DNA of 39,858 bases from a virus. The stretch is from IMG/VR virus record IMGVR_UViG_3300020205_002120, positions 1 to 39,858 of that record, one strand, 5' to 3'. Below the pieces are notes generated by a model, which made no database searches, was not told where the DNA came from, and was given only the letters and a program-made list of their open reading frames with translations. Position numbers and translations under genes: made by a program. This document shows, in pieces, positions 8,410 to 39,648 of this stretch. Within the stretch, counting starts at the first letter, position 1; the number at the start of each line of letters is the position of its first letter.

Positions 8410-11400
8410 TTATCCGAGTAAATTACCTATTAACACACGTACTACTCCGCCTGCATCAAATACTTTAATAGTATTATTTGACATTTGTATTCTTTCACCG
8501 CTTCTAGCAGTTCCATTACTATTATACGGGCCAATAACTAATGAATTTGCATCAATTGAACCAGTAGTAATCTTACCACCTAAAATTTGTGTAGTGTTAT
8601 TATTAATATCTGTGGCTGCACCGCCTGTACTTACTTTGCCATTTAATCCACTGGTTAAATCAGTTGTATTTGCCTTAGCGCTTAAGCTTGAATTTACATC
8701 AGTAGTATTTGCTTTAGCGCTTAGGTCAGTAAAAGTTACTAAACCATCAAAAGTAATTGAAGTTATAACACTTCCCAACTCTACTGATACAGGAGTTACA
8801 CCATAAGCAGATTCAGTAACATTATATCTAACAGCATATGCTTTTTGACCAGCACTAGGTGTAAATAAAGAATGAGACCAGTCTGCACCAGGAGTACTAA
8901 ATGTACCTGTAGTCCAGTTCCAAGAACTAGCAGTAGGACTTGGGGCTGGTGGCGGACTTGTAGCACTAATTTGATAGTATAAAAATCCACTAGCATTTCT
9001 AGGCCCTTTTTGACCTTCTGCTCCTCTTATACGTGCCCAAGTATATAAACTTTTTACACTGCTGTCATCAGGATTATTATCTGTATAAGTACCAATAAAA
9101 TCACCTGGTACCTCACCATTAGCACCAGTAAAGCTTTGTGCAACACCATCTACAACATCATCACTATATTTAATGTGTAGGTATGCAGTTAAACCATCAT
9201 TATAGTCTTTTCCAATTCCTTTTTCAGGAATATATTTTGCAGCAGCACCATTGGTAACAGTACCGTTAGCAGCTATAGTATTTACTCTAATAAACACGTC
9301 GCCAAGTACATAATCATCGTGCCAAGTATTAGCATTTTGCGAGTACTGTACTTTAATACTGCTACCATCATTGTAGTCGGTACCTTTAATAGGCGTTTTA
9401 CCGTCTTTATATTTGGTAAAAGAAACCTTTTTAGTGATTACTAAACCACCTACTGTAGCTGTAAATGTTGCTTCTGCGTAATTTGCATTAAGACTATCAA
9501 TGGTAATAACTCCAGAATTTTGATCAATTCTATAAGTAGCGGCACTACCACCAGTATAACTAACTTTTGCAAATTGAACTAACGCAGGATTAGAGTTTAA
9601 CAGTGTATCTCCGCGAGCAACAAAAAATGTTGTTGTAAAAGGAAATTGGCCTGATTCTGGTACACCAAGTTGGTCGCATATAATTGGCTTAGTATCATTA
9701 TAAATAACTGCAGTAAGCCCATCACTGCCTAAAATTTGACTAACAGTACCTTGTTCATCAAAACTACTTAAAGCATTTTCACTTACAATAACTTTTACTA
9801 CTCTGGTCTCGCCAGCTGGAAAAGGATATAGTCTAAAAGTATTTCCTGTTGGTAAGCCTATAGAGGCGGTAGCCCCCTCTCCAGTTATTTGCACGTATCC
9901 TGTACCTGGATTAACATACCAACTATAATTTGCAGCACCAGTATAGTTACTAGCAGTTGCTGTAAATGTCATATAAGATGGAGTTACAGTAGGCGGAGTA
10001 GTTTTATTATCTGTTAAAAACGCTAGTGCGTCATAAGTTAAATTAACGCTTCTAGCAGTATTACCGCGTACACCTTGTTTAGACTTTGAAAAACTTTGGC
10101 GTACTACAAAATCTTGATGTGTTGAATCAGTTATTTGAACACGTACTGTATAATCAATATAAGCAGCATCTGCTGTCATAGCAGAATGTTGATCGTATTC
10201 TATATATGTAGGTTGTATGTTAGCAGAGCCATCACATACAATATTAACGCCAACAGTAGGTTCTATTACTCTCCAAGTATCTGCAGCAAAACCATCTGTA
10301 CCAACATTATCTGTAAGTAAAGTCTGTGCACCTTTTTTAACTGTAATAGTAGTACCACTACCAACATAATTTAGCGAATCTGTTCCGCCATTTTCGTCTG
10401 CTGTAATAGTATGTGTTTGATTACTTAATTCAACTTGTATTTGAGTGGAACCGTCACATATTCTATAAATAGAAATAGTATCAAAAGTTGTACCTACAGT
10501 AGCAGTTACTTCTACATAGCCTAAATCAACATTATAATCTAATGGATTACTGAATTGATCGTTAGTAATAGTAATACTTTTAGTGTCAGCAGATACAGTA
10601 TAACCAACTTGCTGATTACCGTACTGTGCTCCCAACTCTACACCTGCGCGACTAAACGCTCTAGTTCCCCAAGATACAAGTCCTGTTAAATTTTTAAGTG
10701 TAGCAGTAATTGTAGTACTTGCTACGGTGCTTCGTTTTTGGTTAACATCTTTATATATAAATTCTTTGATAGGTGTAGTTAGTTGAACAGTAGGTGCTGT
10801 TTGACCTGCTATGCCTTTATATACATTGAATACTTTTTCAACAACTAAACCTTTGTAAGTAGCTCTAAATATTACACTACCGCTATTGCCAGTCATAGCA
10901 CTAGCGCTGTATGCACCAGTATTTTGATTAATTGTTGCAACTAATCCACCAATAGCAGAACCTGGTACCACACTATAAAAAGGCCCGTTAGTAAAGTCAT
11001 TTTTACCTGTAACGTCTTCGCTAAAACTATATAATTTAAATATACCTTGTGTTACAGCCCAGTTACCTCCACTACCATCACTGGCGGTAGACAGGGCTGC
11101 TGGATCATTAGTTAAATATCCATATATACTAGTATTTTCATCATAAGTCATTGCACTATATTGCTTAGATATAGTAAACTCAGCTGGATCAATACTACTA
11201 ATTAAAGCATATTTTACATAGTATACTTTATTTGTTTCTAAACCTGTAATAGTAGTAGATAAACTATTAGTTTCAGAGAATAACGTACCCTGACCTGCTA
11301 TTCGCGGGTCAAAGGGCGTTGTTGTACTGTACCAAACTTTTACAGCAATTAAGTCATCGCGTACATCAGTAGTTCTAGATAAGTCGTACGGTGTTGGTAT

Positions 11401-25586: not shown

Positions 25587-27545
25587 TTAGGTAGCTGTAT
25601 ATTTGTGTGCTGTAACTGCGTTACCGTAGTTACTTGTAACACGTGTCATACCTGTACGTAAGCTAGCGACCATCACACGGCGTTGTGTTTCCACTAACTC
25701 TTGTGTGTCGATACGCAGACCACGCTGATTACCAACGATAAAGTTGCCTGGGTTCAAGCAAATTGCACCTGCAACGCCAGTACCTGGTGAAGCAAACTCA
25801 CCGGAGACCAACACTGGGCTTCCACCGATTTGACCGATTTGACCAGTCAACAATGTAGCTTGTGTACCAACTTGATTCATTGTCTGGAACACTGTATCTT
25901 CAAGCAATTGATAGTATGTATCGGTATTAACGATATAAACCACTTCTGCAGGATCGAGACCCCAAGTGCCAAGACCTTGACGTAATGCGCGCATTTTAGC
26001 AACAGTCATACCAGCAACAACAGTATTACCTGTAGCAGTGGTGTTAGTAGCCCAAGCTGCTAAACCTTTGACAGGCACTGTAGCATCGCCGGCACCTAAC
26101 AAGAAAGCTGCATCAACAGCACGTGCAACACGACGAATCATGCCATCACGGATGATTGGCATAAGAGCCAATAATGCATCTTCTTCTTCTTCGTAAGCTG
26201 TGTACTCATTAGTAGCAACTTTATATGCATTCAAAGTAATTTCTTTGATAGCGTGTGTAGCATTTCCACCAGCAGAAGCACCAGCAGCACCAAGTGTGCC
26301 TGGAACAGCGCCAAAGTTGCTGTTAGCAACCCAAGTAGCAGTACCTGCTTCTGGATTAACTGGAATAGTCATTACGTTAGTTTGCATAGCAATGTTGCGG
26401 AAGATAGGTGCAACAACTAAACGACGACGAACTTCAGCTTCTAAATTCAAAGAAACTTCTGTTTCCCAGGTAGCAGAAGGAACGTGAGCACCATACTTTT
26501 CAGCATAAGCACGACCTGTACGTGTACCTTCGATAGATTTACCAGCCATTTTAGCCAATAAAACTGCTTTCTCTTTATCAGCATAAGTCATTTCACCAGA
26601 CTTGGTGTCTGTAAAAGTCATACGTGATTTTTGAATAGCTTCTAATTCAGAGGCTTTCTCTTTCAAAACAGACTCTAAACCAGCTAAAGCTGATTTGCTC
26701 TGCTCTGTTTGAGCTTCTAAACGTTTTTCAACTTCGGCCAACAAACGTTCAGCGCCTGTGTCACCAGTTGAGATTTGAGCAGCAACGGCTGCCTTGACTT
26801 TAGCATCGAAGTCTTGCTGAGCTTTATCAGCAGCGGCTTTTTGATCAGCAGCTTTAGTTTGAGCTTCGATAACAGCTTTAGCTGTAGATTCTGCGGCTTT
26901 AGTAGCAGCGTCTGCTAGCAATTGTTCTAATTGTTTTGGATCCATGATGTTCCATTCCTTTTTGATTTCGCTTTTTGCTTCCGTTGTGGATTCTAGCCCT
27001 TTAGCTGAGTCGCCTTTGGGTGCAAATTGCAGTTTGAAAGATTTAAATTCTTCGGCATCGTCAAATGCTTTAGAAAGACTAAATAGAGTATTTTGATTTG
27101 CTGGCACTGACACTACTGAAATTTCATGTAGTTCCAATTCTTTTACTACGAACAGCTCTGCAGCTGCATTGTATTCCGCGTCTATAATTCGGAATCCGAT
27201 ACTAAATGCGGTTAGTACACCGTCTTTTACAAGATTGTACACTTCTTCTGCTGCTGTGGAGATTCTGGCTTTAATCCATAATCCTTTGGCATCAATTTTG
27301 TGTTCTACCATTCGGCCAACTGGCTCACTATGATCGTGATACGCTAAAATTACTGGATTTTTCAAGTAATTTGCAATACCCTTTTCCCAGACATTTGTTG
27401 GCACTACATCTCCTTGACGATCTGTATCATTGGTACTTGCGTAGCCCATGATATAAATACTACCTTCTGGATCTGTACTTGCTGGTAGAGCATCACTCTT
27501 TATAAACGAGCTATTTAAGTATAGCACTTTATTTTTATCTACCAT
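25587..27545 (-). CDS. prohead protease - major capsid protein fusion (652 aa)
   Basis: One continuous frame encodes two HK97-type functions. Residues 1-~165 are a U35-type prohead protease: AYHDHSEPVGR (catalytic His70) and VLTAFSIGFR (Ser115), followed by LELHEISVVSVPANQ. Residues ~205-300 are Ala/Gln/Lys-rich coiled coil, like the HK97 delta/scaffold domain. Residues ~320-652 are the HK97-fold capsid (YAEKYGAHVPSATWETEVSL; RNIAMQTNVMTIPVNPEAGT). An internal in-frame ATG at 26945 (Met201) has AAGGA 10 bp upstream, so free capsid precursor (452 aa) could be made too. The GC content appears higher than neighbours, as often seen for highly expressed capsid genes. A terminator follows. Confidence 0.9.
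   Translation of the reverse strand: MVDKNKVLYLNSSFIKSDALPASTDPEGSIYIMGYASTNDTDRQGDVVPTNVWEKGIANYLKNPVILAYHDHSEPVGRMVEHKIDAKGLWIKARISTAAEEVYNLVKDGVLTAFSIGFRIIDAEYNAAAELFVVKELELHEISVVSVPANQNTLFSLSKAFDDAEEFKSFKLQFAPKGDSAKGLESTTEAKSEIKKEWNIMDPKQLEQLLADAATKAAESTAKAVIEAQTKAADQKAAADKAQQDFDAKVKAAVAAQISTGDTGAERLLAEVEKRLEAQTEQSKSALAGLESVLKEKASELEAIQKSRMTFTDTKSGEMTYADKEKAVLLAKMAGKSIEGTRTGRAYAEKYGAHVPSATWETEVSLNLEAEVRRRLVVAPIFRNIAMQTNVMTIPVNPEAGTATWVANSNFGAVPGTLGAAGASAGGNATHAIKEITLNAYKVATNEYTAYEEEEDALLALMPIIRDGMIRRVARAVDAAFLLGAGDATVPVKGLAAWATNTTATGNTVVAGMTVAKMRALRQGLGTWGLDPAEVVYIVNTDTYYQLLEDTVFQTMNQVGTQATLLTGQIGQIGGSPVLVSGEFASPGTGVAGAICLNPGNFIVGNQRGLRIDTQELVETQRRVMVASLRTGMTRVTSNYGNAVTAHKYTAT
26943..26960 (-). 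promoter_or_regulatory. candidate internal ribosome-binding site and start for free capsid protein
   Basis: AAGGA at 26960-26956 precedes an in-frame ATG at 26945-26943 by 10 nt, starting MDPKQLEQLLADAATKAAES. This is exactly the junction between the protease domain and the coiled coil, the natural capsid-precursor N-terminus. Most genes in this arm use the same AAGGA site. Confidence 0.55.
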
Positions 27546-31410: not shown

Positions 31411-32121
31411 TTAATTCCAATACTTACTTGAGTCTAAGTTATCCCAGTAGGATCTATTATTACGGTTTAAAAAGTTTTTGATTAAGTACTTGGTCATGCC
31501 AAAATATCCCATCTTGCGAAATCTACGTGAGTCTTGTCCGAAGTAGTGTTTTACAAGTTTAAACTTGTGAGTACTATACTTGCGTGATAAGAAGTAATCT
31601 TCGGATGTTGCAAACTGTTCTGGAAACCCGCCTAGTTCTACAAACTTGCTAGTACGTGTTAACATAAATGCACCAACTGCAAATGGTGAAAAGTACTTTA
31701 GCGTATTATTTATCACATTAAAGATAGTAAAACCAATTTGTGCACGTATGTCAGCATCATAGCATTTTGCATTTAAACCAATTAAATCCAAATTTTCTGT
31801 TTCTATTGTGCTAACTGCTTCATAAATAACCGTGGGTTTGAAAAAGCGTACATCAGCATCGATAAATAGTATATAAGGTGTGGTAGCTAAACGGGCTCCA
31901 CGATTCTTAGCAATGGAAACAGGTCCGCCTTCAATGACTTCAATGTTAAGCTGTGGTCTATAGAGGTTTATAATCTCACGAGTCTTGTCTGTAGAACAAT
32001 CAGCAATAATAATCTTAGTAAGGCCAACGCCTTGAGTTACTAAGTTATCTAGTAAGTGTCCTATATAGTCTTGCTCATTTTTTGACGGTATTACAATTGT
32101 TATCTTGTTGCTTAGGTTCAT
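31411..32121 (-). CDS. family 2 glycosyltransferase (236 aa)
   Basis: A GT-A fold, GT2-family enzyme. ITIVIPSKNEQDYIGHLLDN opens the nucleotide-binding domain, followed by IIIADCSTDKT, SIAKNRGARLATTPYILF and the metal-binding DxD (IDADVRF, about residue 88). A SEDYFLSRKY motif near residue 180 could supply the acidic catalytic residue. A hydrophobic patch (IFNVINNTLKYFSPFAVGAF) may be membrane-associated. It transfers a sugar from a nucleotide-sugar, most likely to a host envelope lipid or glycan. The start lies 47 bp inside the metallophosphoesterase gene in another frame. Family is firm, acceptor is unknown. Confidence 0.88.
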   Translation of the reverse strand: MNLSNKITIVIPSKNEQDYIGHLLDNLVTQGVGLTKIIIADCSTDKTREIINLYRPQLNIEVIEGGPVSIAKNRGARLATTPYILFIDADVRFFKPTVIYEAVSTIETENLDLIGLNAKCYDADIRAQIGFTIFNVINNTLKYFSPFAVGAFMLTRTSKFVELGGFPEQFATSEDYFLSRKYSTHKFKLVKHYFGQDSRRFRKMGYFGMTKYLIKNFLNRNNRSYWDNLDSSKYWN

Positions 32122-32872
32122 CTTTTTCCTTTAACCAAGTTACGATTTCCCAACGGCCCGAATGGTGTTCTACAAGTGCTGTACACGACTCAACCCAGTC
32201 ACCATCGTTCATATAAGTAACACCGTTGATCTCTTTAATTTCTGCGTGATGTATGTGTCCACATATCACACCATCAAAGCCGCGCTTCTTACAATAGTTG
32301 GCTAGATTCTCTTCAAACTTAAATATAAAGTCTACAGCTTTTTTAACTCGGTACTTAAGATACTTGCTAAGACTAAAGTACCCAAAACCCATGCGGTGAC
32401 GTAACCAATTATATTTTGAATTGAGCCCAAGAATAAAGTCATAGGCTTTATCTCCTAAAAATGCTATCCATGGTGCTAAACGGGTGATGCCGTCGAATAA
32501 GTCGCCATGTGTTACTAAGTAGTGCTTACCATCAGCACCTATGTGTTCGATTTGATTGTGTATTTCTACTAAGCCGAATGAAAAGCCATAAGGTATCATA
32601 GGACGTAGAAACTCATCATGATTGCCTGCTATGTAAACCACCCTGGTGCCACGTTTAGCGTGGCCTAGTACTCGTCTGACTACGCTAGTATGCGACTGCT
32701 TCCAACGCCATTTATTTTGCTGTATTCGCCAAGCATCAATAATGTCACCAACTAAGTAAAGTGTTTCGCAGCTATTATGTTTTAAGAAATTATTTAGTTT
32801 ATTAGCTTGTGAGTCTGCAGTACCTAGGTGTACGTCGCTAACGAAGATTGAGCGATACGTAGTAGGCAACAT
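32075..32872 (-). CDS. LpxH-like metallophosphoesterase (265 aa)
   Basis: A calcineurin-type phosphoesterase with all metal motifs: DVHLG (Asp13, His15), GDIID (Asp43), GNHDE (83-87), THGD (121-124) and GHIHH (205-209). The sequence pattern GVICGHIHHAEI and NDGDWVESCTALVEHH is that of bacterial UDP-2,3-diacylglucosamine diphosphatase-like proteins, which act on lipid A precursors. Length 265 is normal. Its start shares bases with the small-terminase stop (TAATG) and its 3' end overlaps the GT2 gene by 47 bp. Together with GT2 and SGNH genes it suggests envelope-lipid modification, perhaps superinfection exclusion; that role is inference. A nucleic-acid end-processing role is less likely. Confidence 0.85.
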   Translation of the reverse strand: MLPTTYRSIFVSDVHLGTADSQANKLNNFLKHNSCETLYLVGDIIDAWRIQQNKWRWKQSHTSVVRRVLGHAKRGTRVVYIAGNHDEFLRPMIPYGFSFGLVEIHNQIEHIGADGKHYLVTHGDLFDGITRLAPWIAFLGDKAYDFILGLNSKYNWLRHRMGFGYFSLSKYLKYRVKKAVDFIFKFEENLANYCKKRGFDGVICGHIHHAEIKEINGVTYMNDGDWVESCTALVEHHSGRWEIVTWLKEKDEPKQQDNNCNTVKK

Positions 32873-33393: not shown

Positions 33394-33499
33394 GTGTAGA
33401 TTTTGGCACCTTTTTGTTTTGGGAGAATTTCTATATGTAGGCCGTGTCGGGGGGCCCCAGCGTGTGTGAAATTTCAATGTCAATTAACCCCCCTTGTCA

Positions 33500-33517
33500 A
33501 TAGGTGTTTACACCTAT
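33500..33517. promoter_or_regulatory. operator-like palindrome, copy 1
   Basis: ATAGGTGTTTACACCTAT: 8-bp perfect arms around TT. An identical-arm copy (centre AA) occurs at 34537-34554. Both abut the -35 of a leftward promoter and are followed by TATGTTGTAT or GTTGTAT. A regulator-binding site is likely; which protein binds is unknown. Confidence 0.65.
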
Positions 33518-33548
33518 GTTGTATATACACACATATAAAAAATAAATG

Positions 33549-33620: not shown

Positions 33621-33944
33621 ATGACTACTAAAACTGTGAACTATACCCCTGAGCAAACAAGCAAAATGATTGCTGACTATCAGGCGGGTGCAACTGTTGA
33701 GACTCTTGCTCAAGAGTTGGGTAAGACTGTGCGTTCAATCGTTGCAAAGCTCTCACGTGAGAAAGTATATCAGGCTAAGACTTATGTGTCAAAGTCTGGC
33801 GAGACACCAGTCAAGAAAGATGCTCACGCTGATTTTATTGGCGAGGCTTTGGGCTTGACTGAATCAGATACCGATTCGCTTACAAAAGCGAATAAGGTAG
33901 CATTGGCTAAGATTGCCGATTTTATCAGGGCTGAAAAGTTTTGA
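33621..33944 (+). CDS. HTH-type DNA-binding protein, paralogue 1 (107 aa)
   Basis: First gene of the early arm, 107 residues. The N-terminal ~50 residues (TVNYTPEQTSKMIADYQAGA, TVETLAQELGKTVRSIVAKL, SREKVY) form a predicted helix-turn-helix: helix, V-E-T-L-A-x-x-L-G-K-T-x-R-S-I-V-A-K-L recognition region. The C-terminal half is an acidic alpha-helical region (EALGLTESDTDSLTKANKVA). Two paralogues occur at 38263-38589 and 39343-39648. The family is seen in phage early regions, but its target is unknown to me. The promoter region carries an 18-bp palindrome that it or a paralogue might bind (inference). AAAGGA is 8 bp before the ATG; a palindromic hairpin follows. Confidence 0.75.
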   Translation: MTTKTVNYTPEQTSKMIADYQAGATVETLAQELGKTVRSIVAKLSREKVYQAKTYVSKSGETPVKKDAHADFIGEALGLTESDTDSLTKANKVALAKIADFIRAEKF

Positions 33945-33973: not shown

Positions 33974-34002
33974 TTGACATGGCTATTACATTGTGATATA
34001 AT
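33974..34002 (+). promoter_or_regulatory. consensus sigma70 promoter
   Basis: TTGACA (33974-33979), 17 bp, TATAAT (33997-34002): perfect consensus on the plus strand. It drives the 32-residue membrane peptide at 34028 and perhaps the SprT-like gene after it. Confidence 0.9.
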
Positions 34003-34128: not shown

Positions 34129-34455
34129 ATGCAAAACCTCAATGACTACATCACATTTTTAGGACTAACAAAACCTGTTGTTGTGCGTGTTAATTCACGC
34201 ACACATAAGGCATGGGATGGTTACTACATACCACGCTATAACAACAAAGGTAACTTAGCCGAGCATCGCATCACTGTATATCTTAAAGATAGAAGCAGGG
34301 ATTTTGAGACTACTCTGGCACATGAGTTAATTCACGCATGGCAAGAAGAAAATAAGGTAACAGAATATCATGGCAAAGACTTTAAGAGAATTGCTAAGAG
34401 AATGGAAAAGCATTTTAATCTGACAAACGTATTCATTAAGGGTACAGATATTTGA
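34129..34455 (+). CDS. SprT-like zinc metalloprotease 1 (108 aa)
   Basis: The start is set at 34129 (MQNLNDYITFLGL); longer in-frame extensions upstream overlap the membrane peptide. HELIH (65-69) supplies two zinc ligands and the catalytic Glu66; His81 in YHGKDF is the likely third ligand, giving the SprT/Spartan-type HExxH-x(11)-H pattern. At 108 residues it is a minimal catalytic domain without the C-terminal zinc ribbon. Family members degrade DNA-crosslinked proteins or act as general proteases; here it might clear DNA-bound host proteins (inference). No ribosome site is evident: a TACAAT -10-like box ends 6 bp before the ATG, so the mRNA may be leaderless, or translation is coupled to the upstream peptide. 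Confidence 0.8.
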   Translation: MQNLNDYITFLGLTKPVVVRVNSRTHKAWDGYYIPRYNNKGNLAEHRITVYLKDRSRDFETTLAHELIHAWQEENKVTEYHGKDFKRIAKRMEKHFNLTNVFIKGTDI

Positions 34456-34507
34456 AAACGAAAGGATTACAGAATGAAATGTAATACTTTTGTTTCTGGA
34501 GGCGCCA

Positions 34508-34537
34508 ATTATACCATGTATAATTGGGGCGTGTCAA
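34508..34537 (-). promoter_or_regulatory. leftward consensus promoter of cassette M1
   Basis: TTGACA-N18-TATAAT on the minus strand, directed against the 3' end of the SprT-like gene. The -10 sits in the dyad CCAATTATAC / GTATAATTGG. Confidence 0.8.
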
Positions 34538-34554
34538 TAGGTGTAAACACCTAT
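34537..34554. promoter_or_regulatory. operator-like palindrome, copy 2
   Basis: ATAGGTGTAAACACCTAT, 8-bp perfect arms, the exact reverse complement of the copy at 33500-33517. It shares a base with the leftward TTGACA and lies about 50 bp upstream of the rightward promoter at 34585. Confidence 0.65.
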
Positions 34555-34584
34555 GTTGTATTTTTGCTAATCTGCAAATATTTG

Positions 34585-34612
34585 TTGACAGATCAAAAAA
34601 TATCGGTATAAT
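34585..34612 (+). promoter_or_regulatory. rightward promoter, leaderless arrangement
   Basis: TTGACA, 16 bp, TATAAT on the plus strand. The -10 ends 7 bp before the ATG at 34620, so transcription should begin at or beside the start codon. Confidence 0.8.
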
Positions 34613-34619
34613 AGAACAC

Positions 34620-34745
34620 ATGAACACAAAATACACTAAAAAACAAATTGCAGAATTCACAAAATTTTGCTTGCGTCACGAATTGAAATTTGCTACAATA
34701 GCAGAATACAATGGTGCTATCACACAATACTTTTTGAAAGACTAA
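34620..34745 (+). CDS. small hypothetical protein (41 aa), likely leaderless
   Basis: MNTKYTKKQIAEFTKFCLRH, ELKFATIAEYNGAITQYFLK, D: a basic, helical 41-residue protein. The ATG at 34620 is chosen over an upstream in-frame start (34524) because the strong promoter at 34585-34612 would start transcription right at 34620 and the longer frame runs through cassette M1. No ribosome site exists. No family recognised; it could be a small DNA- or protein-binding early effector. The next gene begins 3 bp after its stop. Confidence 0.6.
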   Translation: MNTKYTKKQIAEFTKFCLRHELKFATIAEYNGAITQYFLKD

Positions 34746-34748
34746 AAA

Positions 34749-34961
34749 ATGTTTACAGAACATACAACAATTGACCAGATGCAAGCAACACTCTGGGATT
34801 TTTACAAAGATGTGCATGGATATAGACCTAGACATTGGACACAACAAGAATGGGACTCTAGAGAATTTTTGCAAAAAGAATTTGACAGTTTATCAAAAAT
34901 CATTGATAATATGTCAGATGAGCAAAAAATTGCTGAGGGTTGGGGTTCTGTAACTTTATAG
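34749..34961 (+). CDS. small hypothetical early protein (70 aa)
   Basis: A 70-residue, acidic, tryptophan-containing helical protein (MFTEHTTIDQMQATLWDFYK, DVHGYRPRHWTQQEWDSREF). The (L/T)WDFYKDVHG(Y/F)RPR motif followed by W.Q.EWDS is one I associate with small conserved phage hypothetical proteins, but no activity is known to me. It lies 3 bp after the leaderless 41-aa gene and 14 bp before the next gene, so all three share one early transcript. Confidence 0.65.
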   Translation: MFTEHTTIDQMQATLWDFYKDVHGYRPRHWTQQEWDSREFLQKEFDSLSKIIDNMSDEQKIAEGWGSVTL

Positions 34962-34975
34962 ACTGAGAAAATAAA

Positions 34976-35137
34976 ATGACTGATTTTGAAATTGTAAAAA
35001 ACTATATGGATACAAAATATCCACAAAAAACCTATGCTATGCAAAATGGTAACAAATGCGTTTGGGTTAGCATGGGTTTGTGTGATATGTATTTTATTTT
35101 GCGTGATAGCAAAATTGTAGATATTCAGGTTGACTAA
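34976..35137 (+). CDS. small hypothetical early protein (53 aa)
   Basis: MTDFEIVKNYMDTKYPQKTY, AMQNGNKCVWVSMGLCDMYF, ILRDSKIVDIQVD: 53 residues with a helix followed by three probable beta strands, the last being KIVDIQVD. A GAG ribosome-site core lies 9 bp before the ATG. It is the last gene before cassette M2, whose hairpin begins 4 bp after the stop. No family recognised. Confidence 0.6.
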   Translation: MTDFEIVKNYMDTKYPQKTYAMQNGNKCVWVSMGLCDMYFILRDSKIVDIQVD

Positions 35138-35340
35138 TTTGAATACTTTTGTTTCCTATAAAAACTGGAAACAAAAGTATTACATTTCGAGGCGCCAAAT
35201 TATATCATATAATTTGGGCACGTGTCAAGGGTTTTTGCAAATATATTTTTTATGTTGTATTTTTGCACAAATGAAAAATAATTGTTGTATTGGCTGTTTT
35301 TCGTGTATAATTCACTCATACACTAAACAAGGTTTACAAA
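35138..35340. repeat. early-arm cassette M2
   Basis: The 203-bp gap has a hairpin (AATACTTTTGTTTCC 35142-35156 and its complement 35167-35181, 10-nt loop), GGCGCC (35191-35196), leftward TATAAT 35204-35199 and TTGACA 35228-35223 with 18-bp spacing, and an 11-bp-arm dyad around the -10. The TATGTTGTATTTTTGC box and the -10 of the HAD gene follow (TATAAT 35306-35311; best -35 is TTGTTG, 18 bp away). Confidence 0.8.
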
Positions 35341-35817
35341 ATGGCTAAAATTACAAAGGTTTCAATATATGACATGGATGGAACAATCGTTGACAGTTTA
35401 CATCGCTACCGCACAATTATATCTGACAATGGGGAACGGATTGATCTCGATTATTGGAGAGAGAATGAATATCGTGCTATGCAAGATTCACTCTTACCAC
35501 TTGCAGAGCAATATAAAAATGATCTCAGAGATGAAAATTGTTTTGTTATTATTGCTACTGCCCGTGTTTTGCGTTCCGCTGATAATGAGTTTATCACTTC
35601 TGTTTTAGGTGAGCCCGATTATATCATTTCAAGAAATGATGGTTCTAATATCTCAGGCGGTTTACTTAAAATAAATGGTTTGGCTAAATTTTTTAATTTA
35701 GTTACTTTTCGTGATGCTGAATTTACATTTTACGAAGATAATGTAAATTATTTAAAAGCGGTTTGTGATCGCTTCAATATTCGGGGCGTTTATGTTCCAT
35801 CAAAACAAGGGCATTAA
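35341..35817 (+). CDS. HAD-like phosphatase/nucleotidase (158 aa)
   Basis: A 158-residue haloacid dehalogenase-fold enzyme. Motif I is YDMDGTIVDS with nucleophile Asp11 and acid Asp13; motif II is the Thr of IIATAR (about residue 73); motif IV is FYEDNVNYL (about residue 131). The layout resembles small phage HAD phosphatases such as 5'-nucleotidases or the phosphatase domain of polynucleotide kinases, acting on nucleotides or nucleic-acid ends. No kinase domain is present. It is the first gene after cassette M2, with a short RBS-like AAGG 9 bp before the ATG, and is followed by a membrane peptide gene. Confidence 0.8.
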   Translation: MAKITKVSIYDMDGTIVDSLHRYRTIISDNGERIDLDYWRENEYRAMQDSLLPLAEQYKNDLRDENCFVIIATARVLRSADNEFITSVLGEPDYIISRNDGSNISGGLLKINGLAKFFNLVTFRDAEFTFYEDNVNYLKAVCDRFNIRGVYVPSKQGH

Positions 35818-35818
35818 A

Positions 35819-35968
35819 ATGATTCGTTTTATATTTGGTTTATTGGTTACAATGGGTTCGGTTGGCGGTTTAGATAATAATGGAGATTTGCTACAATGCA
35901 CAATTTTAGCCATTATCGGTTTAGCGATAATGGGTTGGGGCGTTTTTGACAAATTAGCCGTGAAATAA
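35819..35968 (+). CDS. small membrane protein (49 aa)
   Basis: MIRFIFGLLVTMGSVGGLDN, NGDLLQCTILAIIGLAIMGW, GVFDKLAVK: two hydrophobic segments (about residues 3-17 and 25-42) around a short polar loop. Start at 35819 chosen over the in-frame 35765, which overlaps the HAD gene by 50 bp. It begins 1 bp after the HAD stop. It resembles small phage inner-membrane peptides of unknown function; a holin cannot be excluded but nothing supports it. Confidence 0.6.
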   Translation: MIRFIFGLLVTMGSVGGLDNNGDLLQCTILAIIGLAIMGWGVFDKLAVK

Positions 35969-36153
35969 ATTTGAATACTTTTGTTTCCCATAAAAATTGA
36001 ATACTCAGGTATTCAATTTTGCGCCAATTTTATCACATAAAATTGGGGCGTGTCAAGTTTTTTCGTATAACTTATTTTTTGTGTGTGTTTAAAAAACCAC
36101 ACCTATTTTTATTTTTATGTGTTAAGATGTAGGCTTACCAACTAAGGCACACA
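35969..36153. repeat. early-arm cassette M3 (mosaic)
   Basis: It keeps the left hairpin arm (35974-35988) but the rest is replaced by a different perfect 12-bp hairpin, AAAATTGAATAC / GTATTCAATTTT (35993-36020, TCAG loop). Then come GCGCC, a leftward TAAAAT 36032-36027 and TTGACA 36056-36051 (18-bp spacer), and a dyad CCAATTTTAT / ATAAAATTGG. A 35-bp segment (about 36065-36099) is repeated almost exactly in cassette M4. The exonuclease gene has only a weak -10 (TAAGAT 36123-36128). Confidence 0.75.
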
Positions 36154-36849
36154 ATGGCTAAAAAACAGTTTTTTGCAATTCTCGACACCGAGACAACTAT
36201 TAATGATACTGTTGCAGATTTTGCAATTATTATTGTTGATCGCAATGGCAAAATTTACAATCAATGTGCGGTTTTGGTCGCTGGACATTATAACACAATG
36301 GAATTATTCCATGATAAAAAAGCAAATGATATTTGGGGTTATGAGGGTTTGAATAAACGCAAAGCGCAATATGTTGCAATGCTAGATAATGGCTTGCGTA
36401 TGATTGCTTCAGTTAATGCAATTAATAAATGGATTAACCAAGCAATTGGCAAATATAATCCTACACTTACCGCATATAATCTTGCTTTTGATTTATCAAA
36501 ATGTATGAATACTGGTATTGATTTATCAGGGTTTAATAATAAATTTTGCTTATGGCAAGCAAGCATTGGTAATATTTGCAATACTAAAAAATACAAACAA
36601 TTTGCATTAGAAAATCATGGTTTTAATAATGTTACTAAACATGGTAATATGACATTCAAAACAAATGCGGAAATGGTTTGTGGTTTCATTAATAATAATT
36701 TTGTTATTGAGCCACATACTGCATTAGAAGATGCAAGAGATTTTGAATTGCCGATATTAACTAATATTATTAAAAAGCGTAATTGGCAAGATAATATTAT
36801 TGCTTATGATTGGAATAAATTTCAAGTCAGGGATCACTTTAAAGCATAA
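36154..36849 (+). CDS. DEDDh 3'-5' exonuclease, DnaQ/RNase T-like (231 aa)
   Basis: A 231-residue exonuclease: ExoI motif ILDTETT (Asp11, Glu13), ExoII AYNLAFD (Asp113) and ExoIII with H-x(4)-D in PHTALEDARD (His188, Asp193), the DEDDh set. These two-metal enzymes remove nucleotides from DNA or RNA 3' ends. It is not fused to a polymerase, so it may act in nucleotide scavenging, RNA processing or repair. CTAAGG lies about 7 bp before the ATG. A GC-rich hairpin follows the stop. Codons are strongly A/T-ending compared with the late arm. Confidence 0.85.
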   Translation: MAKKQFFAILDTETTINDTVADFAIIIVDRNGKIYNQCAVLVAGHYNTMELFHDKKANDIWGYEGLNKRKAQYVAMLDNGLRMIASVNAINKWINQAIGKYNPTLTAYNLAFDLSKCMNTGIDLSGFNNKFCLWQASIGNICNTKKYKQFALENHGFNNVTKHGNMTFKTNAEMVCGFINNNFVIEPHTALEDARDFELPILTNIIKKRNWQDNIIAYDWNKFQVRDHFKA

Positions 36850-36853
36850 AGGA

Positions 36854-36876
36854 TAATCGGGGCTAATAACCCCGAT
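36854..36876 (+). terminator. hairpin after the exonuclease gene
   Basis: AATCGGGG and CCCCGATT form a perfect 8-bp stem with a 7-nt loop, 4 bp beyond the stop. AATATAAAAATGG follows rather than a T-run, so it is a weak or Rho-assisted terminator, or a stabilising 3' hairpin before the PQ-loop gene. Confidence 0.65.
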
Positions 36877-36886
36877 TAATATAAAA

Positions 36887-37135
36887 ATGGAAAATATAGG
36901 TTGGATTGGTTCAATATTATTAGCATTTTGTGGATTACCACAAGCAATAGAATCATATAAAACAAAATCATCCGAGGGATTAACTTGGGGATTTATTGCA
37001 ATGTGGTTTATTGGTGAGATATTCACAATAATATATGTATTCCCTAAAATGGATTTACCATTATTATTTAATTACTCTGCTAATATAATGTTTTTATCGG
37101 TTATTATTTATTATAAAATAAAACCTAAAAAATGA
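36887..37135 (+). CDS. PQ-loop / SemiSWEET-like membrane protein (82 aa)
   Basis: An 82-residue protein with three predicted membrane helices (about 5-22, 34-54, 59-77) and one PQ-loop: GLPQAIESYKTKSSEGLTWG, with Pro18-Gln19 in helix 1. Size and motif match SemiSWEETs, dimeric bacterial sugar/solute carriers, and related PQ-loop proteins. Phage carriers of this type are uncommon and the substrate is unknown. There is no ribosome site before the ATG, only the hairpin at 36854. Cassette M4 starts 2 bp after its stop. Confidence 0.8.
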   Translation: MENIGWIGSILLAFCGLPQAIESYKTKSSEGLTWGFIAMWFIGEIFTIIYVFPKMDLPLLFNYSANIMFLSVIIYYKIKPKK

Positions 37136-37307
37136 TTGTAATACTTTTGTTTTCAAATAAAATGGGAAACAAAAGTATTACTTTTTTGAGGCGCCAAAAT
37201 TATATCATAATTTTGGAGGCGGTGTCAAGCATTTTTTAATAACTTATTTTTTGTGTGTGTTTAAAAAACCACACCATTTTTGGTATTTTTCGGGTATAAT
37301 TTAAGAC
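37136..37307. repeat. early-arm cassette M4
   Basis: Hairpin GTAATACTTTTGTTT (37138-37152) / AAACAAAAGTATTAC (37167-37181), then six T: a plus-strand terminator. GGCGCC 37190-37195; leftward TATAAT 37204-37199 and TTGACA 37228-37223, 18-bp spacer; dyad CCAAAATTAT / ATAATTTTGG. After the segment shared with M3, a rightward TATAAT (37295-37300) ends 7 bp before the next ATG, with no good -35. Confidence 0.82.
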
Positions 37308-37685
37308 ATGGACAGACAAAAATTAGAAGCAAGATTAAACAAAAAATGCGAGAGCATTTGGGAAACCTTGGGCGAAATTCATTGCAAGCTAATTCGTTTT
37401 AATCCGCCCACAATTAAATTAGATGCTAGATTATGGCGAACTGCGGGAATGAATCACCAAGAGGAAAATATGGTTCGCTTAGGCTATAAATTTTTTCTGC
37501 ACTCACAAAAATATTGTGATATCATGGTTGCGGAAATTTTACCGCATGAAATTATACATCAAGCCGATTTCAATCTTTTTGGAATATCCGAAAAAAATTG
37601 TGGTCATGGTGCTAATTGGCAAATGCTTATGGTACAATATGGACTAGAAGCTAAAAAATATCACTCAATGGAGATTTCAAGATGA
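37308..37685 (+). CDS. SprT-like zinc metalloprotease 2 (125 aa)
   Basis: A second minimal SprT-like protease, 125 residues: HEIIH (80-84) with catalytic Glu81, and His100 in CGHGANW as likely third ligand (16 residues from His84). The NCGHG(A/P)xW(Q/K) pattern is typical of SprT-like domains. It is very different from the first copy (34129-34455), so this is not a recent duplication. TATAAT ends 7 bp before the ATG and there is no ribosome site, suggesting a leaderless mRNA. The stop overlaps the next ATG by 4 bp. Confidence 0.82.
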   Translation: MDRQKLEARLNKKCESIWETLGEIHCKLIRFNPPTIKLDARLWRTAGMNHQEENMVRLGYKFFLHSQKYCDIMVAEILPHEIIHQADFNLFGISEKNCGHGANWQMLMVQYGLEAKKYHSMEISR

Positions 37686-37897
37686 TAAACAAAATTTCAT
37701 GGTTAGGGACAATATCAAGCATTATCGGTGCTTTTGTTGTTGCTAGTAAATTATTTTTAATTGGCTATTGCTTTTTTATTGTTGGTTCTGTTTCATGGTT
37801 AATTGTTGGAATTATCAGAAAAGATAATTCACTAATCGTTTTAAATGGTACATTCTTTTTGGCAAATATTCTAGGATTATATAATGCAATTAATTAA
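37682..37897 (+). CDS. small multi-span membrane protein (71 aa)
   Basis: A 71-residue hydrophobic protein with about three membrane segments (ISWLGTISSIIGAFVVASKL; LIGYCFFIVGSVSWLIVGII; VLNGTFFLANILGLYNAI). The S-W-L-(I/V)-V-G-I-x-x-K-D-x-(S/A)-L-I-x-L-N-G motif recalls small transporter-like phage membrane proteins, broadly related in texture to PQ-loop or PnuC-like half-transporters, but without a clear PQ. Its ATG overlaps the SprT-like stop (ATGA). Confidence 0.6.
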   Translation: MINKISWLGTISSIIGAFVVASKLFLIGYCFFIVGSVSWLIVGIIRKDNSLIVLNGTFFLANILGLYNAIN

Positions 37898-38042
37898 AAT
37901 CTTTTTTCAAATGATTTGGCATTTTTTATATTATCGCCCTGATAAAATATTGGTCACAATTATTTTGCCTTTTATTATTATTTGTACTCAAAATTATAAT
38001 CAGAATATGCTTGAATATAAAAAATTTATTTTTGATAAATAA
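37884..38042 (+). CDS. small membrane-anchored protein (52 aa)
   Basis: MQLIKIFFQMIWHFLYYRPD, KILVTIILPFIIICTQNYNQ, NMLEYKKFIFDK: an amphipathic N-terminus and one membrane helix (about residues 22-35). AGGA lies 9 bp before the ATG, and the gene overlaps the upstream membrane protein by 14 bp. It is the last gene before cassette M5. No family recognised. Confidence 0.6.
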   Translation: MQLIKIFFQMIWHFLYYRPDKILVTIILPFIIICTQNYNQNMLEYKKFIFDK

Positions 38043-38262
38043 AATATTGTAATACTTTTGTTTTCAGATAAAATGGGAAACAAAAGTATTACTTTTTGGG
38101 GCGCCAAAATTATACCATAATTTTGCAGGACGTGTCAATAGGGATATACCCTAATGTTGCATACAAACCACAAATAACCCCACAAAAAATAAGTTGTTGC
38201 AGATTCTGAATTTTTTGTTATAATAGAGACTTCTCCACTCCACTACTCTGAAAGGGTTTAAA
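38043..38262. repeat. early-arm cassette M5
   Basis: Hairpin GTAATACTTTTGTTT (38049-38063) / AAACAAAAGTATTAC (38078-38092) with five T: plus-strand terminator. GGCGCC 38100-38105; leftward TATAAT 38114-38109 and TTGACA 38138-38133 (18-bp spacer); 9-bp-arm dyad. An operator-like TAGGGATATACCCTA (38139-38153) abuts the -35. A rightward promoter TTGCAG-N16-TATAAT (38197-38224) serves HTH paralogue 2. Confidence 0.82.
38197..38224 (+). promoter_or_regulatory. promoter for HTH paralogue 2
   Basis: TTGCAG, 16 bp, TATAAT; about 38 bp upstream of the ATG at 38263, which has AAAGGG 6 bp before it. Layout mirrors that of HTH paralogue 1. Confidence 0.65.
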
Positions 38263-38589
38263 ATGACAGCAAAAACTGTAAACTATACCGCAGAACAAAC
38301 TGCGAAGATGATTGCCGATTATCAATCTGGATTTTCGGTTGAAACTATTGCCGAAAATGTCGGCAAAACTGTTCGGTCGGTCGTTGCAAAATTGAGCCGT
38401 GAAAAGGTTTACCAAGCGAAAACCTACACTTCCAAAACTGGCGAAAAACCAGTTAAAAAAGACGTTCATGCCGATGCAATCGGTGCAATTTTGCGCTTGA
38501 ATGAAAACGATATTGAATCGTTAACAAAAGCAAACAAAAATGCTTTAAAAGCAATTTTTGATGCTTTGGCTAATTCAAAGCCAATTTAA
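38263..38589 (+). CDS. HTH-type DNA-binding protein, paralogue 2 (108 aa)
   Basis: A close homologue of the protein at 33621-33944 over its whole length (VNYTAEQTAKMIADYQSGFS, VETIAENVGKTVRSVVAKLS, REKVYQAKTYTSKTGEKPVK), 108 residues. The recognition segment KTVRS(I/V)VAKLSREKVYQAKTY is nearly identical to paralogue 1, so both may bind the same site; the C-terminal acidic half differs more. Third codon positions differ widely from paralogue 1, so the duplication is old or the copies were gained separately. Two terminator hairpins follow. Confidence 0.75.
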   Translation: MTAKTVNYTAEQTAKMIADYQSGFSVETIAENVGKTVRSVVAKLSREKVYQAKTYTSKTGEKPVKKDVHADAIGAILRLNENDIESLTKANKNALKAIFDALANSKPI

Positions 38590-38609
38590 AATTATCTTAG
38601 CATAATTTT

Positions 38610-38640
38610 AATAACCCTGCAAATTGCAGGGTTATTTTTT
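38610..38640 (+). terminator. Rho-independent terminator after HTH paralogue 2
   Basis: AATAACCCTGCA / TGCAGGGTTATT, 12-bp perfect stem with 3-nt loop, followed by TTTTTT (38635-38640). Confidence 0.92.
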
Positions 38641-38645
38641 GCTTT

Positions 38646-38672
38646 AATAACCCTACTGTGAGTAGGGTTATT
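38646..38672 (+). terminator. second tandem hairpin
   Basis: AATAACCCTACT / AGTAGGGTTATT, 12-bp perfect stem with GTG loop, sharing AATAACCCT arms with the preceding terminator. It takes the hairpin position in cassette M6 and has no T-run, so it may serve leftward transcripts (A/T-rich sequence on that side). Confidence 0.75.
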
Positions 38673-38755
38673 GGCGCCAAAATTATAACATAATTTTGGC
38701 GAGCGTGTCAAGAACTATTTTGTAGGTGTTTTCCCCTATGTTGTTTTTATGCAAC

Positions 38756-38798
38756 CTGGCACGATTCTTGCGCCATATGGGCTGGCACGATTCTTGCT
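38756..38798 (+). promoter_or_regulatory. two tandem sigma54-like promoter elements
   Basis: CTGGCACGATTCTTGC occurs twice (38756-38771 and 38782-38797), 26 bp apart. Each has the -24/-12 layout TGGCACG-N4-TTGC; the second, followed by T, fits the consensus fully. The second copy also lies in an imperfect inverted repeat (GGCACG...TTGCTA/TAGCAA...CGTGCC), so an operator or RNA hairpin is an alternative. No coding gene follows within 350 bp. Confidence 0.45.
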
Positions 38799-38823
38799 AT
38801 TAGCAACTTCCGTGCCTACAAAT

Positions 38824-38911
38824 AAGTTAGTTAGCACTCACTGGGGCGGTTCATTTAAGTTAGCGAGCACTCACTGGGGCGGTCATGTTAAGTTAGTTAG
38901 TACACGCTAAC
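38824..38911 (+). repeat. 33-bp tandem direct repeats (2.6 copies)
   Basis: Copies start at 38824, 38857 and 38890, exactly 33 bp apart. Each begins AAGTTAG and the first two contain AGCACTCACTGGGGCGGT; the third diverges after about 12 bp (GTTAGTACACGCTAAC). The period is near three helical turns, as in replication iterons or regulator arrays. Confidence 0.8.
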
Positions 38912-38929
38912 ACAATTTTTGCCACCATA

Positions 38930-38958
38930 AAAAATGAGTACTTTAGTACCACATTTTT
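38930..38958. repeat. interrupted inverted repeat
   Basis: AAAAATG-(A)-GTAC-TTTA-GTAC-(CA)-CATTTTT: a stem with small bulges just after the iterons. Possible leftward or rightward terminator; the T-run suits plus-strand termination. Confidence 0.5.
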
Positions 38959-39099
38959 ATGCTGCGCCAGTGGAAATCCTTGTCAAGTGGAAATCTTTGA
39001 GGTACCGCAGGCGCCAATTATACAGTGCCAAACTGAATCTTGTCAAGTAAAAAATTTTAAACCAAACTGAATTGAAATTTTACGTTTATAATTTTGTAT

Positions 39100-39299: not shown

Positions 39300-39342
39300 A
39301 GAATCTTAAACAGCGCAGAAACCAAAACATAAAGGACATATG

Positions 39343-39648
39343 ATGACTGACAAAACTGTAAACTATACCCCCGAGCAAACTGCTGAACTCGTTCAAGCAT
39401 ATGTAGAAGGTCAGAGCGTAGAAAATTTGGCAATGCAATTGGGTCGTAGCACTCGAAGCATTGTAGCTAAATTGTCTCGTGAAGGCGTGTACAAAGCTAA
39501 GAGCAAAGCTTCTGGCGTTGCCCGTGTTAAAAAAGCTGATTTGGTAGATCAGATCGCTGCACGTTGCGGTGTAGCTCCAGAGATTTTTGAATCACTGGAA
39601 AAAGCCAATCACGAAGTGTTGGAGCAGATTGCTTTTAACCTGCGTTGA
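39343..39648 (+). CDS. HTH-type DNA-binding protein, paralogue 3 (101 aa)
   Basis: Third member of the family (DKTVNYTPEQTAELVQAYVE, GQSVENLAMQLGRSTRSIVA, KLSREGVYKAK). The second of two consecutive ATGs (39343) is chosen: AAAGGA is then 6 bp away and the N-terminus aligns with the paralogues. The recognition segment differs (GRSTRSIVAKLSREGVYKAK), as does the C-terminal half (DLVDQIAARCGVAPEIFESL), so DNA specificity or partners probably differ from copies 1 and 2. Codon choice is less AT-rich than in copy 2. Confidence 0.75.
   Translation: MTDKTVNYTPEQTAELVQAYVEGQSVENLAMQLGRSTRSIVAKLSREGVYKAKSKASGVARVKKADLVDQIAARCGVAPEIFESLEKANHEVLEQIAFNLR

Follow-up and report, generated by a model that had tools for sequence, protein, structure and literature searches.

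Among described phage elements, the nearest in kind to those reported here are the promoter-early-stem-loop cassettes (PeSLs) of T4-type phages, as portrayed in a paper that cites them (PMC4503421). Phage T5 offers further points of reference: it carries strand-specific nicks with the consensus R/GCGCRGG, whose function is unknown (PMC3517423), and its injection stop signal is rich in repeats, palindromes, and DnaA boxes, which are possible contacts for host components (PMC13250531). In the T5-like phage AKFV33, early promoters consist of TTGCTw and TATAATA at a spacing of 17 to 18, with an AT-rich -43 region (PMC3326045). Here, we describe an array of seven sites in the early gene block of an uncultured virus, IMG/VR record IMGVR_UViG_3300020205_002120, the whole 39,858 bases of which form the window analyzed. 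Its minus strand carries TTGACA-N18-TATAAT-GGCGC seven times (M1 to M7, with TAAAAT in one), directed against the early genes. Arrays of this kind belong to a large group of uncultured T5-related phages and were not found in the isolated phages searched. We place about even confidence in reading the element, from its sequence features, as a leftward host promoter with a short, hairpin-headed RNA at the borders of early gene modules.

An array of promoter-like sites opposing early genes

A first-pass annotation had placed all seven sites correctly, in coordinates and in strand, but it overlooked that in six of them the -10 lies within a palindrome (P). These class A sites are M1 (34501 to 34537; TTGACA-N18-TATAAT-T-GGCGCC), M2 (35191 to 35228), M3 (36021 to 36056), M4 (37190 to 37228), M5 (38100 to 38138), and M6 (38673 to 38711). 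In M3, TAAAAT is accompanied by a compensating left arm, ATTTTA, an instance of covariation. M7 (39010 to 39046) represents class B: it has the same TTGACA-N18-TATAAT-T-GGCGCC without a palindrome, and the core TTTGGCACTG stands ahead of its -10. The first-pass annotation also passed over this second class, the near invariance of GGCGC, a relic site described below, and both the kinship to T5 and the resemblance to its injection stop signal. Exact matches to TTGACA-N16-20-TATAAT number 11 in the window, against 0.11 expected from shuffling, and six of the 11 are M sites. As first noted, each of the seven has an 18-bp spacer, against 17 bp in the late-arm promoters (minus strand; 3405, 20830, and 29684), and the flanking genes of the window sites run in the opposite direction. 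The GGCGCC claimed to follow the -10 is found in six of the seven; M3 reads GGCGCA on the minus strand (36021), so that the invariant word on the promoter strand is GGCGC, and the GCGCC formerly assigned to M3 is a plus-strand reading of the same bases.

A hairpin (H) lies on the minus strand just past each class A site. Of the long hairpins announced after M2 to M5, those of M2 (35140 to 35184; z -5.4), M4 (37138 to 37181; z -5.6), and M5 (38049 to 38092; z -4.1) are strong, whereas that of M3 is weak (35993 to 36020; z -2.0). Another strong hairpin follows M6 (38646 to 38672; z -7.3 for an 86-nt stretch), and a weak one follows M1 (34455 to 34496; z -1.9), overlapping in part the end of the gene region before it.

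The count in other phages that the first-pass annotation had proposed reveals at least 120 IMG/VR contig stretches with the exact pattern TTGACA-N18-TATAAT/GGCGCC, many of them carrying multiple copies. Replacing GGCGCC with CCGCGG as a control gives no match in IMG/VR, while spacers of N19 (a control) and N17 give 3 and 99 matches, respectively. In a separate phage group, represented by N17 loci such as L166, L173, L188, and L191, TTGACA-N17-TATAAT-CGGCGCC sites stand in tandem and lack the palindrome. Bacterial and archaeal genomes (257 Gb) contain 15 scattered single matches in unrelated phyla, a chance-like distribution. Megablast of the early block against phage isolates returned no match, BLASTN of the 39-mer against the same isolates returned just short partial matches (E from 0.6 up), and a covariance-model search of Rfam 15 returned no match up to E 0.1. 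Mycobacteriophage L5 stoperators were rejected as the identity of the sites, given 8 matches to GGTGGMTGTCAAG at 3 mismatches and 10 expected. After removal of duplicates, the collection comprises 451 class A and 153 class B sites.

Promoter elements and the covarying palindrome

The promoter elements recover one another. Sites selected by the -35 and GGCGC alone show TATAAT, TAAAAT, or TACAAT in register nearly always, and selection by the palindrome and GGCGCC alone yields TTGAC[ACG] with an 18-bp spacer in 25 of 34 cases. The other nine are a variant with a lengthened palindrome, for which six inspected loci also carry TTGACA-N18-TATAAT; among the sites inspected we did not find relatives that keep GGCGCC and the hairpins without the promoter, the observation originally named as contrary to the proposal. 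Of 190 palindromic sites, 189 have an 18-bp spacer, and sites outside this set have one of 17 or 18 bp, which places these sigma-70 hexamers within the 16- to 18-bp spacing of such promoters. An extended -10 TG is present in 364 of the 451 class A sites, and A-tracts, which formed part of no search, occupy UP-element positions upstream of the class A -35. Because the promoter elements are conserved independently of each other and of the search, and because of their best register, the extended -10, and the A-tracts, leftward initiation by host RNA polymerase seems quite likely, and the claim that these are real promoters has so far come through every sequence test applied.

The two arms of P covary: TATAAT is paired with ATTATA, TAAAAT with ATTTTA, and TACAAT with ATTGTA, and the 1 to 3 bases past the -10 match their complements. 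Among TAAAAT sites, 87 have the compensating arm ATTTTA and 14 some other arm, and none has an uncompensated ATTAT arm. Across 30 distinct ungapped sites we count 16 double changes, compared to 2.6 after shuffling and 0 to 3 in slid controls, a count that is not a probability since the sequences are related. TATAAT and TAAAAT forms stand side by side in 42 loci. The G-U asymmetry in P comes mostly from the TG of the extended -10, which lies at the loop, and does not decide which strand is read as RNA.

A symmetric palindrome overlapping the -10 could also be an operator, bound by a phage repressor such as the D5-like helix-turn-helix (HTH) protein of the same block, which would then control all sites. 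Nearly every locus has HTH genes in this block, and a second palindrome of the form TAGG..CCTA (TAGGTGTTTACACCTA or TAGGG..CCCTA) adjoins the -35 in 85 of 451 class A sites. However, the arms of P change by compensating pairs (T-A to A-T, A-U to G-C) and have a length of 1 to 3 outside the core, which is a signature of pairing and not of base recognition and makes an operator very unlikely. In the window, operator-like second palindromes lie at 33500 to 33517, 34537 to 34554, and 38139 to 38153, the first of them within a relic site (33490 to 33520, minus strand) that consists of TTGACA and the palindrome TAGGTGTTTACACCTA, without a -10 and without GGCGC.

Orientation, neighboring genes, and module borders

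Within a record, the copies never mix strands: sites are found in 47 of 49 records, in none of them on both strands, and they share the strand of terL in every one of 169 loci. By a crude gene caller, the two flanking genes both run against the site in 320 of 451 cases and both run with it in 10. We observe a back-to-back rightward promoter at 63% of sites (10% when shuffled), mostly 30 to 70 bp off. Leftward terminators lie downstream of 55%, compared to 28% at gene 3' ends without a site, and the predicted leftward RNA has a median of 71 nt. This enrichment, together with the late arm having its own promoters, weakens the suggestion that the sites feed the late arm by leftward transcription.

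Sites are confined to one block of approximately 3 to 10 kb per genome, in which recurring early modules, (3), (2 4), (1 6), and (0 7), appear in differing orders with sites at their borders. The order is 0 5 / 8 / 3 / 2 4 / 1 6 14 / 0 / s / 9 0 in the window and 0 / s / 1 6 / 3 / 2 s / 0 10 in the related locus L287, and module exchange at site borders is suggested by these arrangements. The reordering would likewise fit an element that is a recombination cassette alone, that is, a repeated border for homologous swapping of early modules, as proposed for T4-type PeSLs. Yet H is far too diverse for homology, the compensating changes in P keep pairing and not identity, and neighbor reuse is similar at site borders and at other borders, and we consider such a sole function highly improbable.

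In the explanation that we favor, a class A site would be a host sigma-70 promoter firing leftward, opposing the early genes and placed back to back with the promoter from which the next early module is read rightward. Its RNA would start at or just before H and so bear a 5'-terminal hairpin (the 5' 45 nt of the predicted RNA have a mean z of -4.3), and it would mostly end within about 35 to 150 nt, within the preceding gene's 3' untranslated region or slightly into the gene itself. The same element holds P over the -10 and the invariant GGCGC between P and H, and it marks the borders of early modules that are permuted between phages. A short, hairpin-headed RNA ending near the 3' end of the preceding gene is the most likely product to be predicted from these features, and our guess is that the element separates transcription units and stops rightward run-on rather than regulating a distant target. 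Of the dispersed family of small RNAs that had been proposed, the dispersal of the sites across many phages is borne out, but a family in the sense of a conserved RNA sequence is not supported, given the variety of H arms and their lack of G-U bias.

Every site faces oncoming transcription, and the same promoters could instead act as roadblocks, in which RNA polymerase held on a too-perfect promoter would block rightward transcription between modules non-productively. Tight binding and slow escape are expected of a near-consensus -35 and -10 with an extended -10. The T5 N25 promoter has been termed escape-limited (PMC12464699). A roadblock would, however, be placed at sites of which 47% already have rightward intrinsic terminators, and it leaves P, H, and GGCGC unexplained; we regard it as unlikely.

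GGCGC and the hairpin H

When GGCGC is not required by the search, it still occurs within 0 to 5 bases in 275 of 285 palindromic sites, a share that is partly biased in that the loci were fetched with GGCGCC, while 107 sites with GGCGC and another base are unselected. Six of the exceptions belong to the variant with a palindrome lengthened by 10 bp, in which GGCGCC keeps its place at the base of the hairpin, at a distance from the start site. In 59%, GCGC is followed by C. We rejected GGCGC as a mere GC-rich discriminator on account of this exactness and the empty CCGCGG control.

H starts 0 to 10 nt past GGCGCC in 90% of sites (4% when shuffled); its loop most often has a length of 4, and its arms come in at least 265 different sequences. 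A role as intrinsic terminator was rejected, as most sites have no T run in either direction (13 to 25% leftward, 6% rightward), and so was anchoring to the start site, as the offset from GGCGCC is equal for discriminator lengths of 1 and 3. Because the arms are diverse, show no G-T excess, and mostly lack a T run, H is kept as pairing on both strands alike, neither as a sequence nor as a terminator.

Several of these observations weigh against a promoter for a short leftward RNA as the full explanation. The H arms contain 69 G-T and 82 A-C mismatches, that is, no G-U excess toward the leftward RNA, so a constraint on that RNA alone is unsupported, and no common sequence is found among them. 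Nearly half of the sites have no recognized leftward terminator. The same right neighbor is found in 0.40 of cases at sites and in 0.45 between adjacent genes, so that permutation favors site borders over other gene borders only weakly. Finally, an exact GGCGC that is kept at the hairpin base despite a palindrome longer by 10 bp is not explained by a promoter alone, and both GGCGC and the palindromes look constrained at the DNA level.

Phage identity and other features of the window

The large terminase subunit (TerL) of the window is 45.5% identical to that of T5 over its length, the portal 36.8%, and the major head protein 31%, and among isolates its TerL is best matched by those of T5-sized Vibrio phages (approximately 51%). 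The T5 protease aligns to the front of the head-protein reading frame (37.8%), and we observe that prohead protease and major head protein are fused in one 652-amino-acid (aa) frame (25587 to 27545, minus strand), these being separate genes in T5. Records of relatives reach 112 kb, and the window is therefore a fragment of the larger genome of a T5-related phage. Between terL and a small-terminase-like gene lie glycosyltransferase-like and calcineurin-like phosphoesterase genes (31411 to 32872, minus strand). The early block encodes an HTH protein similar to T5 D5 three times on the plus strand (33621 to 33944, 38263 to 38589, and 39340 to 39648), the third copy being 33% identical to T5 D5 over 45 aa. 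Also on the plus strand are a TTGACA-N16-TATAAT promoter back to back with M1 (34585 to 34612), a promoter without a preceding leftward site (33974 to 34002), and a terminator-like hairpin with a T run beside the H of M6 (38610 to 38636).

Comparison with T5 nicks and other known systems

In class B sites the -10 is preceded by TTTGCACTG and followed by GGCGC. Next to these sites, TTTGCACTGGCGC elements form clusters on the same strand (71, versus 3 on the other). Repeats and palindromes are present at this end of the array. In the window, a GGATTTCCACTGGCGC element beside M7 (38964 to 38989, minus strand) resembles the T5 nick GGATTTGCAC-AAAA/GCGCAGG, and three tandem 33-nt repeats in the gap between M6 and M7 (38823 to 38921) form a repeat zone. 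The T5 injection stop signal spans positions 9140 to 10149 of AY543070, and its nick, at 9748/9749, reads GGATTTGCACAAAA/GCGCAGGGCAATTGCCCTGC, with GCGC and a palindrome directly after; the major nicks of T5 are on the terL strand.

The array may, by analogy, work like the T5 injection-stop and nick element. In a DNA-level account, GGCGC would be a T5-type strand-specific nick (5'-R/GCGC) between two hairpins, the array a counterpart of the injection stop or first-step transfer, and the promoter elements a means to open or mark the site. Shared with T5 are R-GCGC followed by a palindrome, the GGATTTGCAC core in class B and in the nearby elements, and the terL strand. The repeats and palindromes at the class B end recall the repeat-rich zone beside the T5 early genes, and the near invariance of GGCGC, its place in the lengthened variant, and the absence of G-U asymmetry in H fit as well. 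In contrast, the four distinct major nicks of T5 are without TTGACA-N18-TATAAT, and neither whole T5 nor whole Vibrio phage D254 contains a site even allowing one mismatch. The arrays match the T5 consensus in RGCGC, but the next base is mostly C where T5 has R, and CACTGGCGCAG elements near class B fit that consensus more fully than the sites themselves. Nicks are spread genome-wide in T5 and its injection stop signal has one, whereas the arrays repeat their sites within a single block, and the terL-strand match is equally expected from conserved gene order beside terL. T5 nick flanks were rejected as direct homologues of class A, as none was found among them. Taken together, this account strikes us as rather unlikely, although it is the most serious rival of the promoter reading; if the link holds, it would give a comparative handle on the purpose of the nicks and on the halt of DNA entry after the first step.

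Further palindromes and nick-like words were noted in related loci. In a 22-kb stretch of Vibrio phage D254 (L330; 95000 to 117210), the terL strand has 11 copies of RGCGCRG and the opposite strand a single one; T5-type nick sites might account for this bias, as might coding. Among perfect 16-nt palindromes in 3.3 Mb of related loci, the most frequent is the exact bacterial parS sequence TGTTTCACGTGAAACA, with 26 distinct occurrences (expectation, approximately 0.001). Of these, 20 lie downstream of a site at a distance of 24 to 60 nt, and not one lies upstream; examples lie leftward of GGCGC in L094, L107, L112, L119, and L287. TGTTCCACGTGGAACA occurs 17 times in related loci. Some H hairpins are Fur-box-like (AATGCGAATGATTCGCATT; L094, L287, and others), and the T5 injection stop signal has repeated palindromes of a similar kind (AY543070, approximately 9560 to 9730). 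The exact parS and Fur-box-like palindromes just downstream of sites in some phages allow a further, doubtful reading, in which the sites would be docking stations in the first-entering DNA of T5-like phages, where RNA polymerase on the promoters, strand-specific nicking at GGCGC, and host DNA-binding proteins bound to the palindromes would jointly stage DNA entry or the takeover by early genes. If true, this would amount to an extended, repeated injection-stop system.

Compared to described T5 early promoters, the arrays likewise have strong putative sigma-70 promoters with an A/T tract upstream, but they have GGCGC after the -10 in place of an AT-rich start region, and they point against the genes. 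The short leftward RNA predicted here recalls the oop RNA of phage lambda, which also opposes the early operon, yet oop is single copy and antisense to cII. To our knowledge, no described phage element has a consensus promoter that both opposes the genes and carries a covarying palindrome across its -10. What emerges is a strand-locked element, regulatory or structural, with hundreds of sites in an uncultured T5-related group; the T5-like isolates examined lack it.

T4-type PeSLs share with the arrays a promoter and stem-loop in the gaps between small early genes and many copies per genome; PeSLs lie between shuffled modules, and the permuted modules around the arrays suggest the same, with a weak statistical contrast. 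As the first-pass annotation had pointed out, their promoters point with the downstream genes whereas those of the arrays point against them, and the PeSL stem-loop is a terminator whereas H mostly has no T run. Measured against PeSLs as they are generally known and as the citing paper presents them, the arrays differ in their direction, in a -10 set within a covarying palindrome, in their invariant GGCGC, and in their occurrence in T5-like and not T4-like phages.

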